This document shows positions 48,822 through 64,000 of a DNA stretch of 64,000 nt, one piece after another. The position numbers and the translations under genes are program-made. Each line of letters opens with the position of its first letter. Within the stretch, counting starts at the first letter, position 1. This DNA comes from a virus, in IMG/VR virus record IMGVR_UViG_3300036790_000396, positions 62,001 through 126,000 of that record. One strand, 5' to 3'. The notes below the pieces were generated by a model. It made no database searches. It saw only the letters and a program-made list of their open reading frames with translations, and was not told the DNA's origin.

Positions 48822-49739
48822 ATGTCGCTGACCAAGTACGCCAGCCTGGAGCTGCTGGAGGCGTGGCGCGTGCCCGCGAAGGCGACGCCGCGCGGGCTGT
48901 CCAAGGCGGCGCACCGCGTCGACTTCGAGTACACGCCGCGGCCCGGCTACCTCGCGTACTGTTGCCATGTGAGAGACAGCAACAAGGGAAAAAGCTGCAC
49001 GGGGCCCGGGTGCCTTCGGGAAGCAAAATGCAAGGGTCTTTGCCTTGCTCATTACACTCAGCGGAGATCTGGAAAAGATCTTTCCGTGATCCGCGTTCGT
49101 GCAAAAAATGCTACGGACTCCTGCGTATTTCCCGGATGCGATCGTCCCCATTTTGCTAAAGAATACTGCAAATCCCACTATCATCAGCGGCAGCGTCACG
49201 GAGAAGTAACAGTATTTCGTCAGTTCTTGGAAATTTGTTCTTTTCCTGGATGCGATCGTGGTCACTCTGCGCATGGATACTGCGACGGGCATGCGATTCA
49301 GCTGCGGAAGGGAAAGGAGCTGTCTCCCCTCCGGGCTCGCCAGAAGGGCCGTGTATGCACAGTAGACGGCTGCAGCGATCCTTACCTTGCCCGCGGCTTC
49401 TGCGCAGTTCATTATAACCAGTGGCACTGGGCTGAATCGGAAGAGGGACGCGAGGCTCGAAAACGTGCTTTCCACAAGCGACGTGCTATTAAGGCATCTG
49501 CCGAGACAAGACTGATCTCTTCTCGCGAATGGAAGCGCCTGGTCAATCGTTACCAGGGGAAATGTGCTTATTGCAGGAAGGCCCCGTGGAATCATCGTGA
49601 GCACATAATTCCCCTAAGCCGCGGTGGAAGGGAATCGATCGGGAACCTGCTTCCGTGCTGCGAGAGATGCAACACGTCTAAGCACAATAAGCTTCTCTCT
49701 GAGTGGAGGTACGGTGCTTCGCAAGTACGCATCGCTTGA
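48822..49739 (+). CDS. HNH homing endonuclease fused in frame to the first 44 codons of the prohead protease
   Basis: 305 residues. Residues 1-44 (YASLELLEAWR ... AHRVDFEYTPRPGYL) belong to the prohead protease; from AYCCHV onward the DNA is AT-richer and the protein changes to four C-x4-C-x(4-7)-C-x3-H zinc fingers (such as CVFPGCDRPHFAKEYCKSH) and a C-terminal HNH motif: CAYCRKAPWNHREHIIPLSRGG ending in CERCN. It uses the host gene's own leader and start. The host gene restarts at GTG 49714 with a recoded copy of the same N-terminus, overlapping this ORF by 26 bases. Probably a homing endonuclease cutting uninserted protease genes near codon 44 (inference). Confidence 0.88.
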   Translation: MSLTKYASLELLEAWRVPAKATPRGLSKAAHRVDFEYTPRPGYLAYCCHVRDSNKGKSCTGPGCLREAKCKGLCLAHYTQRRSGKDLSVIRVRAKNATDSCVFPGCDRPHFAKEYCKSHYHQRQRHGEVTVFRQFLEICSFPGCDRGHSAHGYCDGHAIQLRKGKELSPLRARQKGRVCTVDGCSDPYLARGFCAVHYNQWHWAESEEGREARKRAFHKRRAIKASAETRLISSREWKRLVNRYQGKCAYCRKAPWNHREHIIPLSRGGRESIGNLLPCCERCNTSKHNKLLSEWRYGASQVRIA

Positions 49740-52700
49740 GGTACTGGAGGCGTGGCGTCAGACATCTTCTGCTGCTATGTCGAAAACTGCTCATAGAGTA
49801 GATTTTTCGTACATTCCACGTAAAGGATACTTGTACGTCCGCTCCCGGGCTATCTCCTCGCGCACCAACGACAACCACGACACGTTCGAGGCCCCGGAGA
49901 TCGAGCAGGGCTACCGGACTTTCCTCGGAAAGCCCGCCTTCGTGAATCACCGTAACAGCAACCACCGCCGTGCCCGCGGCGTCATCGTGGCCGTGGCGCT
50001 GCACCGGGACCGCAACCCTGACGGCTCCCCCGACACCTGGGTCGAGGCACTGCACGAGCTGGACGCGGTGCGGTTCCCCAAGCTGGCGAAGGCGATCATC
50101 GAGGGCCGCGTCAACCGCACCTCGATGGGCGTCGACTGCGAGTACTCCACCTGCTCCGCGTGCGGCAACCGGGCCACCAACCCTGCTGAGTACTGTGCTC
50201 ATCTTCCGGCTCGCAAGGGGCTGAAGATCAGGCAGCGTAACAATGAGACGGGGAAACTGGAAGAGAAGCTTATTCATGAAATATGTGCTGGTCTTACATT
50301 TTTCGAGAACAGTTTTCTCGTAGAGGATCCTGCCGACCCAACTGCCCATGTTTTGGACAAGCCGGACGACAGGGGCATGAAAATAAATGCCTCACGTCAC
50401 GTGCTTCCAGGTGCGCCCCATGCGGATGCAGTTGACCGAGGAAACGGAAACGCCGTACCGGCGCGCTATGTCAGCGAGCGTGAGCGCCCCGGAACCCCGG
50501 TTCATCCAGTCCTTGCCCGTCGCGACCTGAGGCAGCAGTTCACGCTTGATGATCCGGACATCCTCTTCGGTCAGCCTGCGGTTGGGATGAGTCGCCCCGC
50601 GAGCGTGCCGTTCTTTGGACACCATGTCAGCGACGTTGTCGGCCCGCGTGCCGAGGAACCAGTGCATCGGGTTCATGCACGGCGGCCAGTCACAGCGGTG
50701 GAGTACCCCCAGGCGCGCAGGGATCGGGCCGCGAATCAGCGCCCATCCGTATCTCGATCCCAGGACACTTCTGCGGTCCGTGCCCGACAGCGTGAACCGC
50801 GGGTAGCCGGTCCTGAAGAATCCTCCCGTCCACGGATTGCAGAATCCCGGTCCGGGCGTGAAGTCGATTTTCGACAGGAAGCGCTCGATCTCGGACTCAG
50901 TGCTCGCGAAGCGTCCGTCTACCAGCGATCGTTCCATGGACGTGATTCTATCAATAATCCTAGGCAGGCCCGCTACCTCACCATGGATGAGGCCCGCGCT
51001 GCGGGCCGCGAGGCCATCCGGCGGCAGGCGGAGGATCCCCGCTTCGACGGCGTCGGCCTGAAGCAGGACGATGACGGCTGGTACGTGCGCACGCACCGGG
51101 CGCGCAGCCGTTCCCATCCCGTCCCGGAGGCGATCCCCGCGAAGGACATCGAGTTCATCCGCTCTACCGGGTCCCGCCGCACCGCCCGCAACGAGGAGGG
51201 CGGCGAGATGCCGGTAGTCCCCTCCAGCCGCCTCCCCCGGGTGAGCCTCCCCGAGTCCCGGAGCAGCTATGAACAGGCCGGCGACTTCCTGGATAACCTG
51301 CTGGGCAACGTGGGAAATCCGGACGCGGCTGAGTGGAGGCCGTCCTATCCCACCCGCGGCTGGGACGACGAGCGCCAGCCCAGGCTGCACGAGGAGCTGC
51401 GCAAGTCGCGCGAGCGCAACCTCCGGCGCGACATTGACGATGACAGCGGCGAGGGCCTGGCCAGCAAGCTCGACCGCCCGGAGCAGTGGGAGCACCAGAT
51501 CGAGCACGGCCTCCCGGAAAGCCTGTTCGGTGCCGGCGTGCACGTCACGCACGATTTCAGGGACGATCCCGAGGGCTTCCTCCGCGACCGGTGGAACATG
51601 CGCGCCTTCCCGTACCGCGACCCGGGCGGCACCGGCCCCGGAGGCCTGAAGCCGTCGAACAAGTGGGTCCGCAAGACCTGGCAGCGGGCAGTCGGCCCGC
51701 TGGCCTGCGACCACCCCGGCTGCCCGCCCTGGGAGCACCGGGGGCCGCGCCCTCAGGCATCGCTGCGTACCGCTGACCGGGACGATGATTACTTCTACGA
51801 CGAGGACGACGATCAGCACCCGGATGAGCTGCCGAGCCGCCGGGACTGGCGCCGGGAGGATGACGTGACCCGCAGCGAGTCCTACCCCTATTCGCCCTCT
51901 CCCGGCTCGGAGGGGCGCGACGACCTGGCGGGCTCCCGCACCCGCGGGCGCCGCGCCGCCGAGTCGTGGGACGGCTTCCCCGACGTGCGCCCCGCTCCGC
52001 CGTCCGGCCCGCGCCTGTCCAGCCGTGTCGCGGCTGCCGGGGACAGCTGGGAGCCTGATCAGTGCCCGGAGTGCGGCGAGGGCTGGACCGAGGGCAGCTC
52101 GCGTTTCGATGACTCAGACTCGCAGTGCCTGAACTGCGGTACCCGTTACAATGCTTTTTCCGGGGCTCCGCTCAGCGATGACGAGATTGCCGTTAATGAT
52201 GCTGCGATGGCCAACGAGCAGCAGAAGCGCGAGGACACGCGCTCCGGGCAGGAACTGTGGAGGAAAGTCCACCCGGGCCCCGGGCACGAGTACTCCTATA
52301 ACCCGGCCGGCGACAATGCCCCGCTGGAGATGATGAATGACCTGCAGGACCAGGAGAACCAGGACAAGAGCGGACCGCTGCGGCTGAACCCGAGGCTTCC
52401 CTCCTACGAGAAGATGATGCGCCGCCGGCGCGAGCGCGCCATCCAGCAGTGGCCGTCCCATCAGGAGGTCCCCGTCGCCCCTCCGGGGACGGAGAGGCTG
52501 TCCAGCCGCATGGCGAAAGGGCGCCATGACTACCGGATGATGCACCAGGCTCCCGACCGGCACAGCGGCGTTCCCTATCACGAGGCGAGCGGCGCGGACC
52601 CGGATGACCTGGTCACGATCTACCGGGGAGTGCCCCGGAACGTGAAGACGATTCACCGCGGCGACTGGGTGACCACCGATCCGGCCTACGCCCACCAGCA

Positions 52701-60103: not shown

Positions 60104-61123
60104 ATGACCGAACTCGCGACGCTGGCCCCCCAGGGGCAGCTGACCGCGCAGGGCGCTCCGTCCGGGCTGCGCCGCGTAGCGGCTCGCAAGTCTGACGACT
60201 ACGTCACGGACATCGAGCGGCGGCGGGCCTCCCGCTCGCCGCTCACCCGTGAGGCCAAGGTCCGCAAGATGGCCCTGGTCCTGTCCGACGAGATGCACGG
60301 CTTCCGCCGCCTGGGCGTCGGCATGGTCGGCCCCATCCAGCTCAAGCTCCGCTATCAGGGCATCACCCGCAACGTCCTGGTGGAGGACCCGGTCACCCCC
60401 GGCACTCCCGTCGAGTACGACGTGTGGGACGACCTGGGCCAGGCGTACATCCTGTCCGGCACCGAGGGCGAGGTCCGCGTGACCCCGTTCGAGGGCAAGC
60501 GGATCCCGGTCCGGTTCTTCCGGATCGCGTCCCGCCCGGCGATCCGCAAGGAAGACCTCTTCTACCTGCGGATCAACGCGGTCGAGCAGGCCCAGGACGA
60601 GACCAAGCAGGCGATCCTGAAGCAGGAGGACGCGCGGCTGCTCGTCATCCTGCAGGCCGCCGTCACGGACTACGCCACCCGCCCTGACCACGTCGTCACC
60701 CCGAACCACAACATCACCGAGGCCAGCGGCTACCTGACGCCGGGCTCCCTGTACTCCGCGGTCGCGATGACCGACCTGCACGAGCTTCCCTCGGCGCGGA
60801 TCCTCATCAACCCGTTCGACTTCCGGGACCTGTACAGATGGGACATAAACCAGACAGGATGGGCTTTTAAGGACAGGGTGGTAGCTGGTGAGACAATCAC
60901 CTCATTTGGTGAGTTTCAGCTCCAGCGCTCCATCATCGTCCCGCAGGCCAAGATCTTCCTGACGCCCGAGCCGAACTTCCTGGGCGTTTTTCCAGTTCTG
61001 TACTCTCTTGATGTGGAAGAGAACCATCTGGTCGAGGCTTTCTGGAAAGGTTGGGTTTTCGACGAAATGGTGGCCATGTCGATCCTTAACCCAAGGGGCA
61101 TAGCTACTATAACGAAAAGCTGA
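60104..61123 (+). CDS. Major capsid protein (probable HK97 fold), 3' part AT-recoded
   Basis: 339 residues, ATG after AAGGAAGGTAAGG. The order of an acidic N-terminal helix region, FRIASRPAIRKEDLFYLRIN, ILQAAVTDYATRPDHVV, SARILINPFDFRDLYRWD, ERSIIVPQ-type strand and a C-terminal EAFWKGWVFDEMVAMSI suits a major capsid protein of a large phage. Two coding patches (60833-60917 and 60985-61123) use A/T-ending codons unlike the rest, e.g. ATAAACCAGACAGGATGG. The gene is followed by a PD-(D/E)XK endonuclease gene. Confidence 0.75.
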   Translation: MTELATLAPQGQLTAQGAPSGLRRVAARKSDDYVTDIERRRASRSPLTREAKVRKMALVLSDEMHGFRRLGVGMVGPIQLKLRYQGITRNVLVEDPVTPGTPVEYDVWDDLGQAYILSGTEGEVRVTPFEGKRIPVRFFRIASRPAIRKEDLFYLRINAVEQAQDETKQAILKQEDARLLVILQAAVTDYATRPDHVVTPNHNITEASGYLTPGSLYSAVAMTDLHELPSARILINPFDFRDLYRWDINQTGWAFKDRVVAGETITSFGEFQLQRSIIVPQAKIFLTPEPNFLGVFPVLYSLDVEENHLVEAFWKGWVFDEMVAMSILNPRGIATITKS

Positions 61124-61130
61124 GTATTTT

Positions 61131-61160
61131 CTGTGATGGTCTCAGCGAAGATCATCACAG
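61131..61160 (+). terminator. Hairpin after the capsid gene
   Basis: CTGTGATG/CATCACAG, a perfect 8-bp stem with 14-base loop, seven bases after the capsid stop. No strong T run, so it may be a weak terminator or mRNA end-protection structure. Confidence 0.55.
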
Positions 61161-61182
61161 ATGATACAAGGTCATCGTTGAC

Positions 61183-61239
61183 ATGACTCACCCTCTCCGT
61201 GTAGCCTGACATCAGGATCACATGGAGAGGGTGAGTCAT
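61183..61239 (+). promoter_or_regulatory. Long hairpin sequestering the endonuclease ribosome binding site
   Basis: ATGACTCACCCTCTCC (61183-61198) pairs perfectly over 16 bases with 61224-61239. The 25-base loop holds CCTGA-CA-TCAGG. The 3' arm is GGAGAGGGTGAG, the Shine-Dalgarno for the ATG at 61242, so long transcripts from the capsid gene should hide it. T4 I-TevI is controlled in a comparable way. Confidence 0.8.
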
Positions 61240-61241
61240 TT

Positions 61242-62219
61242 ATGGCACCAAAATCGTCAAAGCCGAAGTACATTGACGAGGTCAAGCGGCTCTACATCAC
61301 GGAGCTGTGGTCTCTTAGCGAGATCAGTCAGCGGCTTGGCCCGAGCGTGCAGACACTTTCTCGCTGGCTGGGTGAAGAGGGGATCGAGCTAGCCGCCCGG
61401 CCCCGCGACCCTAACGCAGGACGCACGCCAGGGGCCCAGGCCGAGATCAATCAGCGCATCAGTGCCGCTCAGGCTGCGCGCCTGGAGTCCGGCGGCAACC
61501 GCGGCGGCCGGGTAAAGCAGTTTGCCGAAGAGACGCGTTCCTGCGCGAATCCGGGATGTGATGCCGCTTTCCGTGTCCGCGAAGACTCCTCGCAGCAGTT
61601 CTGCAGCCGCCAGTGCGCACGCACGGTGGGCAATAAGCAGCGGTGGGACGGGAAGAAAAATATGACCACATGCCCGTGTGGTGAGATATTCTACAGCCCG
61701 TATCCGAAGAAATATCATTCAGATGAATGCCGACAGGAATACGGCGGCAAGAGGCAGCCTAACCCGGCTAACACTCTTACGGGGATCTGCCAGAATCCTG
61801 GCTGCCCGCAGTCGGCTCGTGAGTTCTCTTACCCGAAATCGCAAGGGCACCGGAAGTACTGTTCTGATAAGTGCTCGCAGGAGCATGTGCGTCCCATCGA
61901 GCAGCTGAACGGCCTGGAAAAGCAGTTCACCGGCTTGTGCGAGCTGACGGGCATCGGCTGGCGTCGGCCTTTCGCCGACGAGCAGATCTCGTGGGGCGAG
62001 CGCGGATCTTACGCGCCTGACTTCATCTGCGAGTGGCAGGGCTCCGTGGTTGCCATCGAGACCAAGGGCGACTACTGGATTAAGGAAGACACCCATGCCA
62101 AGATCGACGCGTGGCGCGCTCGCAAGGAGATTCCCGTGATTCTCCTGTTCGAGTCCCAGGTGAGGGAGCTGCGGATGATTCCCGATGCGGCTGCCTTCTG
62201 GATGCGGCTGCAGGGATAG
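61242..62219 (+). CDS. PD-(D/E)XK (EDxHD/Vsr-like) homing endonuclease
   Basis: 325 residues. N-terminal helix-turn-helix (LWSLSEISQRLGPSVQTLSR), three zinc-knuckle repeats of the C-x4-C...C-x3-C type (CANPGC...QFCSRQC, CPCGEIF...SDEC, CQNPGC...KYCSDKC), then a nuclease core SYAPDFICEWQGSVVAIETKG with PD...E-x-K. Zinc fingers followed by this fold are known from Vsr-like homing endonucleases. Codons are AT-richer than the capsid gene upstream. Confidence 0.85.
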   Translation: MAPKSSKPKYIDEVKRLYITELWSLSEISQRLGPSVQTLSRWLGEEGIELAARPRDPNAGRTPGAQAEINQRISAAQAARLESGGNRGGRVKQFAEETRSCANPGCDAAFRVREDSSQQFCSRQCARTVGNKQRWDGKKNMTTCPCGEIFYSPYPKKYHSDECRQEYGGKRQPNPANTLTGICQNPGCPQSAREFSYPKSQGHRKYCSDKCSQEHVRPIEQLNGLEKQFTGLCELTGIGWRRPFADEQISWGERGSYAPDFICEWQGSVVAIETKGDYWIKEDTHAKIDAWRARKEIPVILLFESQVRELRMIPDAAAFWMRLQG

Positions 62220-63757: not shown

Positions 63758-64000
63758 GGGAGCGCCCGGCTCCTTCTCGGAGGCCAGGTGGTTCCGGGTG
63801 CTGTGCGAGATGACCGGGATCGGCTGCCGGCCGCCGGAGGAGCGGGAGCGGGCTGTCATGGCCACCGCGAATCCCTTCCTCATTGAGTATTCCGGCTACG
63901 CGCCCCTGTTCATCTGCCGGCACGGCACCGCCGTGACGGGCGTCGAGATCCACGACGGCGACCTCACTCCGGAGATGACCCGGGACCTGGGCACCTGGTG
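63744..64000 (+). CDS. Hypothetical protein, truncated by window end
   Basis: At least 85 residues from ATG 63744. SFSEARWFRVLCEMTGIGCR and ICRHGTAVTGVEIHDG are visible. Only the N-terminal part is present, so no family can be assigned. Confidence 0.6.
   Translation, partial: MAAAEGAPGSFSEARWFRVLCEMTGIGCRPPEERERAVMATANPFLIEYSGYAPLFICRHGTAVTGVEIHDGDLTPEMTRDLGTW

Follow-up and report, generated by a model that had tools for sequence, protein, structure and literature searches.

The recoded 3' end of a phage major capsid gene and the predicted nuclease gene that follows it very probably form a single mobile unit: a homing element, free-standing, of a kind that substitutes a new end for that of the gene hosting it. 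Both genes lie in a 64,000-nucleotide stretch of viral DNA (hereafter the window; positions 62,001 to 126,000 of IMG/VR record IMGVR_UViG_3300036790_000396, which comprises 146,944 bases). The head module of this record resembles that of the Ceeclamvirinae (Myrna, Bixzunavirus).

Silent recoding at the capsid 3' end

The host gene of the element (60104..61123, + strand) encodes a major capsid (head) protein (phrog_2522, E 6e-98) with relatives in 216 phage records and 277 viral contigs. Across codons 1-243, only 11 of 237 codons end in A or T. This changes abruptly at the AGA codon at 60836, the first to be recoded: in patch 1 (codons 245-271, 60836..60916, + strand) 14/27 codons are A/T-ending (binomial p 7e-12), and in patch 2 (60986..61120, + strand), which runs up to the stop codon, the count is 21/41 (p 5e-17). 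The two are separated by an unaltered GC-rich segment (60920..60985, + strand) without a single A/T-ending codon among its 22. The original prediction, made from the letters of the window alone, had described just such a mosaic. Against the capsid gene of L001, a relative without a downstream nuclease (a non-carrier), the patches reach a nucleotide identity of just 0.77-0.79, compared with 0.89-0.90 in the body and the gap (0.894 in the gap itself), while 93/96 residues are identical across the 3' end. Since protein identity holds while nucleotide identity drops, the patch changes are nearly all silent. Their AT-rich appearance arises largely because the gene is GC-saturated, with ~95% G/C-ending codons, such that silent changes tend towards A/T. 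The patch 1 region is also recoded in L010 and L038-L040, and partly in L016 and L032.

The gene downstream (61242..62219, + strand) is a predicted homing nuclease that combines DNA-binding modules with a nuclease domain: an N-terminal helix-turn-helix (residues 7-45), several Cys4-like zinc fingers (about 101-211) and a C-terminal PD-(D/E)XK domain (219-325). This corroborates the earlier description of a zinc-finger PD-(D/E)XK endonuclease immediately after the capsid gene. Its catalytic pattern is canonical (E226, D260, E273-x-K275), and the alignment shows PDF and E-x-K, not the EDxHD catalytic motif of Vsr. An AlphaFold model built on an alignment of 13 relatives (pLDDT 79.6; a single-sequence model was poor, at 47.5) matched VRR_NUC (Z 9.1), Hjc (Z 7.5) and the homing endonuclease I-Bth0305I (3r3p, Z 7.5), and a T7 endonuclease I profile matched residues 262-302. 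The window enzyme shares the PD-(D/E)XK-type fold with I-Bth0305I and the Vsr-like homing endonucleases, but differs in its D...E-x-K motif, and I-Bth0305I is no closer to it than the resolvases are. 'Vsr-like', as the gene was first labelled, is therefore a loose term, because the catalytic pattern is canonical and I-Bth0305I is one of many PD-(D/E)XK matches. A single-sequence pattern search for close relatives of the nuclease returned none; an alignment-based search did find relatives.

Recoding tracks nucleases across relatives

To place the window gene in context, 80 close capsid relatives from IMG/VR were codon-aligned. The slot 3' of the capsid gene is empty in many of them, and is otherwise filled by one of several nuclease types: relatives of the window nuclease, HNH genes of the NUMOD4 type, HNH genes of another type (both of these on the opposite strand), or a gene for a LAGLIDADG-like protein. 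Recoding accompanies the latter three occupants as well. The HNH labels derive from PHROG matches and sequence motifs; for L005 the LAGLIDADG label derives from its motif alone, and PHROG names that family HNH endonuclease. With lineages collapsed at 97% identity as the unit of the test, the mean fall in G/C content at third codon positions (GC3) over the last 51 codons is 0.21 in 22 carrier lineages versus 0.04 in 36 others (p 3e-6), and a carrier/non-carrier difference is retained inside the nearest clade (p 3e-4). The onset of recoding is variable and often lies upstream of the insertion point described below; strongly recoded carriers are recoded through to the stop codon. The patches are polymorphic among relatives and track the nuclease, and are not ancestral in all of them. 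The two origins first proposed for the mosaic, recoding of the target and co-conversion during homing, both appear right.

A scan with the nuclease alignment alone gave 28 loci, and all 28 sit directly behind this capsid gene, with capsid identities as low as 57%. The phages with nucleases at the capsid end belong to a large family from soil and fresh water. Downstream of the capsid genes of L024 and L033, an opposite-strand HNH gene sits beside remnants of a zinc-finger nuclease, an apparent case of stacked invasions at one site.

Near-identical pairs of phages reveal where the changes fall. The capsid genes of L002 and L005 differ at 7/1017 positions, all silent and all within the last 37 nt; in L005 a LAGLIDADG-like gene follows, and in L002, which lacks a nuclease, the endolysin gene is directly next. 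L038 and L040 are near-identical in the body of the gene, with 20 differences (one of them altering an amino acid) confined to about the last 250 nt, and carry different nucleases alongside their different 3' ends. Between L033 and the non-carrier L023, the last 41 codons hold 26 silent and 0 amino-acid changes, compared with 64 silent changes in 223 codons elsewhere; L033 and L041 each match L023 at 96/96 residues. Of the 12 positions that distinguish L011 from L014, 10 lie within the last 46 nt and are all silent, and a nuclease was detected in neither; this block is apparently a protected empty site. In L006-L009 the recoded capsid end is followed by what appear to be the first codons (MSEDIGIAW) of a LAGLIDADG-like gene, the rest of which is gone, an apparent fossil of a lost nuclease.

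Cultured Bixzunavirus phages provide the same comparison. As in L002/L005, genomes that are near-identical elsewhere differ in whether a single fixed site holds the nuclease, and the whole empty site is present in 51/210 Bixzunavirus records. Capsid genes are identical among the non-carriers Momo, NoodleTree, Flabslab and Derek. The sampled carriers show 2-15 differences in the last 102 nt versus 2-4 in the first 900, with the exception of Tonenili (4 versus 23). Silent changes cluster in the last codons of the gene, at those of an LNPRG motif; one amino-acid change in the last codons, V321I, occurs in three carriers. In McWolfish, Cane17 and NuevoMundo they are limited to the LNPRGI codons (CTGAACCCCAGGGGCATC to, e.g. 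CTCAATCCAAGAGGCATA), after which the empty-site sequence resumes before the nuclease start. The nucleases themselves are 76-99% identical in their catalytic domains, whereas identity drops to 20-53% between zinc-finger arrays of different types (compared among L081, L082, L086, L088-L090 and L095-L099), which suggests that the targeting parts have been exchanged. Two annotation irregularities were encountered in this set: the nuclease of Rabinovish (L083) is annotated as two overlapping open reading frames (ORFs) and may be frameshifted, and in NuevoMundo (L090, MG812493) the GenBank labels look swapped, with the nuclease named major capsid protein and the capsid hypothetical protein.

Displaced capsid tails mark the insertion point

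At least seven relatives retain the capsid end that the insertion pushed aside. Native, GC-rich copies of the last 20-26 capsid nt lie behind the nuclease in L019/20, L025, L029/31/35, L076 and Tonenili, and protein-level remnants of the tail are found in RedWattleHog, in which nuclease and capsid both end in IILRKS, and in the distant L129-131. In L029 the native tail is fused to the C-terminus of the nuclease, ending LASITKS, and the next 81 nt are 93.8% identical to the post-stop sequence of the nuclease-free L022. As a control, the terminal capsid piece recurs 7 times, compared with 0-3 times for internal capsid pieces. Because the tail remnants begin at codons 331-333, the insertion point can be assigned to LNPR^GI, within R331-I333 (61094-61102 in the window). 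The putative nuclease target, LNPRGI (61085..61102, + strand), is suggested both by the displaced-tail starts in L029, L019, L025, L076 and Tonenili and by the clustered silent changes of the Bixzunavirus carriers.

As read from these alignments, the relatives display insertion in the capsid gene, replacement and displacement of its tail, and the association of nuclease with recoding. For the window we infer by comparison that the capsid tail from 61094-61102 to the stop codon is a carried-in replacement, in which case the last codons of patch 2 would correspond to the tail borne by the element in relatives.

A mirror image at the window protease

The original prediction also drew attention to protease genes altered beside nucleases. 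This is borne out for the 5' end of the window protease, where the arrangement is the mirror image of that at the capsid. An upstream HNH ORF opens with 44 codons (48822..48953, + strand; 0/42 A/T-ending) whose translation matches the N-terminus of the protease in relatives L134-L138 and L146; these codons are the native start of the protease gene, now displaced. The remainder of the ORF (48954..49739, + strand) is the nuclease part (HNH_5/HNH; PF14279, PF01844), with 123/256 A/T-ending codons. The recoded replacement 5' end of the protease follows (49714..49833, + strand), with 23/40 codons A/T-ending up to 49839, and 0-1 per 10 thereafter. Its recoding ends exactly at the GYL codon where the native copy was interrupted, and no such 5' patch was present in the protease genes of 13 relatives. 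At the capsid 3' ends and the protease 5' end alike, the replacement diverges in DNA and keeps the protein. From its sequence, the window protease displays the same logic in a different head gene, affected at the opposite end and by a nuclease of unrelated type. Further into the protease ORF, downstream of the conserved domain, 50224-50975 forms a second stretch with a GC3 of 0.4-0.7.

A model of gene-end replacement and its alternatives

Under the proposed mechanism, the nuclease would cut a capsid gene that has not been invaded, at the conserved LNPR^GI codons some 24 nt ahead of the stop. Repair of the break from the carrier would then bring in, along with the nuclease, a substitute for the capsid tail that specifies the same residues with different codons, leaving the capsid intact. 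The native tail would be pushed behind the nuclease, to be lost later or turned into the end of the nuclease ORF. Both the cleavage at LNPR^GI and the homing by break repair are proposed from the sequence patterns above. Recoding would most likely render carriers, and some of their nuclease-free descendants, immune to cutting. A shield of this kind is plausible, since recognition by a phage homing enzyme has been blocked by engineering 17 silent changes (PMC11620839). In its widest form, which we hold to be rather more probable than otherwise, the proposal is that phages hold widespread gene-end-replacing homing elements near either end of essential head genes; that the silently recoded end acts as a combined repair and immunity patch; that the elements derive from several unrelated nuclease families, with Bixzunaviruses swapping zinc-finger arrays on a near-constant catalytic domain; and that they drive a silent-codon arms race in the capsid gene.

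Several observations weigh against this reading. Some carriers are barely recoded (L042, L055, L016 and L062), and among the Bixzunaviruses EmmaElysia carries the nuclease with an unaltered LNPRGI core. Conversely, L012, L013/14, L021 and L080 are recoded though a nuclease was not detected. In the window phage, a search for a displaced capsid tail as far as contig position 142,900 found none. Nor would replacement of the tail alone account for there being two separate patches, or for recoding that reaches so far upstream; the patches with their normal gap could reflect successive conversion tracts or a second target.

The patches might instead be a foreign capsid end, acquired as a co-conversion tract from a diverged, lower-GC phage with no selection for difference. 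This would account for the physical linkage of recoded tail and nuclease, it is how the fungal mitochondrial elements discussed below are interpreted (PMC3630166), and a low-GC relative clade exists (L064/L066). We nevertheless regard it as unlikely, as the recoded ends retain the residues of their own clade (exemplified by L033 and L041), none of 2.9 million viral contigs contains the exact stretches of 21 and 25 nt that were taken from the two patches in the window, and the silent block that separates L011 from L014 occurs without any nuclease.

A similarly small likelihood attaches to the proposal that recoding is favoured since the replacement and native tails would otherwise be direct repeats, through which recombination would delete the nuclease. 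The repeat would be only about 24 nt, non-duplicated codons upstream of the insertion point are recoded as well, and nuclease-free phages can be recoded (L012-L014), although the duplicated ends in several relatives and at the window protease are indeed strongly diverged in nucleotides.

It is much less probable still that the AT-rich stretch is a regulatory feature of the nuclease gene, such as a promoter or RNA element. Promoters of T4 nuclease genes can sit in the upstream gene (PMC2988022), and a strong hairpin does precede the nuclease ATG; however, a promoter/terminator scan found no promoter-like site, capsid genes that face opposite-strand nucleases are recoded too (L024, L028, L033, L038), and the same codons are altered in differing ways. 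Finally, we find it scarcely credible that the downstream gene is an ordinary phage Holliday junction resolvase, as annotated in GenBank, beside unrelated compositional drift: the predicted fold resembles Hjc and other resolvases, a similarity of fold only, but the gene is polymorphic in presence and absence, capsid tails are displaced, zinc-finger arrays differ between near-identical catalytic domains, and unrelated nucleases substitute at the same site.

Relation to known systems

The closest described system to these gene-end-replacing elements is that of the fungal mitochondrial mORFs with C-terminal duplications, known from Allomyces atp6 and from Glomus atp6, atp9, cox2 and nad3, in which a nuclease gene that has invaded a conserved gene near its 3' end brings along a replacement end and displaces the native one (PMC3630166). 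The replacement end there shares 64-81% nucleotide identity with the native one with hardly any change in protein, as at the phage capsid ends. The fungal elements differ in their mitochondrial setting and in encoding LAGLIDADG or GIY-YIG nucleases (PMC3630166). The phage elements, in contrast, feature zinc-finger PD-(D/E)XK and unrelated nucleases at one site, affect both ends of genes, and show recoding that runs beyond the replaced end.

Among phages, T4 provides free-standing homing endonucleases and intronless homing (segF, segG and mobE, with segD beside capsid gene 23), and the likeness is that a nuclease gene adjoins a conserved phage gene with its target in or beside that gene (PMC2988022). 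The seg enzymes are GIY-YIG nucleases, however, and we found no description of a T4 gene whose end had been replaced and silently recoded while a remnant was displaced. For gp210 of PhiPA3, the 17 silent mutations engineered into its target gene (PMC11620839) are of the same kind as those seen naturally here; gp210 is intron-encoded (PMC11620839), whereas the present nuclease gene lies outside any intron and is set apart from the capsid gene by an intact stop codon. Islands of homing endonuclease genes, enriched near capsid, terminase and reductase genes and marking exchange boundaries, have also been described (PMC10448857), but these involve T5orf172 and IPA-HNH nucleases, and a text search of that report found no mention of synonymous changes. 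In the literature searched, we found no earlier phage report of a gene end that had been replaced and silently recoded, which is not proof of absence.

These elements represent a phage counterpart of the mitochondrial gene-end-replacing nucleases, and they occur in cultured mycobacteriophages with near-isogenic carriers and non-carriers; homing, the cut site and the protective value of the silent codons are therefore directly testable. The data further suggest that where the ends of phage genes show patches of unexplained codon usage, these are footprints from which nuclease targets can be read, and that selection can act strongly on silent sites of essential genes in phages. For the question of how zinc fingers of this sort select their DNA, the exchangeable arrays form a natural series to learn from.

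Other features of the locus

A perfect hairpin with a 20-bp stem (61183..61239, + strand; RNA fold -48 kcal/mol, z -8.1) stops 2 nt short of the ATG of the nuclease gene, and possibly limits translation of the nuclease; an Rfam scan gave only a sub-threshold miRNA match to it. Strong hairpins also precede the nuclease start in L010, L025 and Rabinovish. A group I intron or intein was considered and rejected, as the capsid ORF is uninterrupted and reaches its own stop codon ahead of the nuclease gene, and Rfam gave no intron match in the window or in five relatives. PADLOC returned only a weak match. A second, diverged PD-(D/E)XK domain without zinc fingers, at 37% identity, is located at positions 125789-126094 of G000 (from window position 63789).
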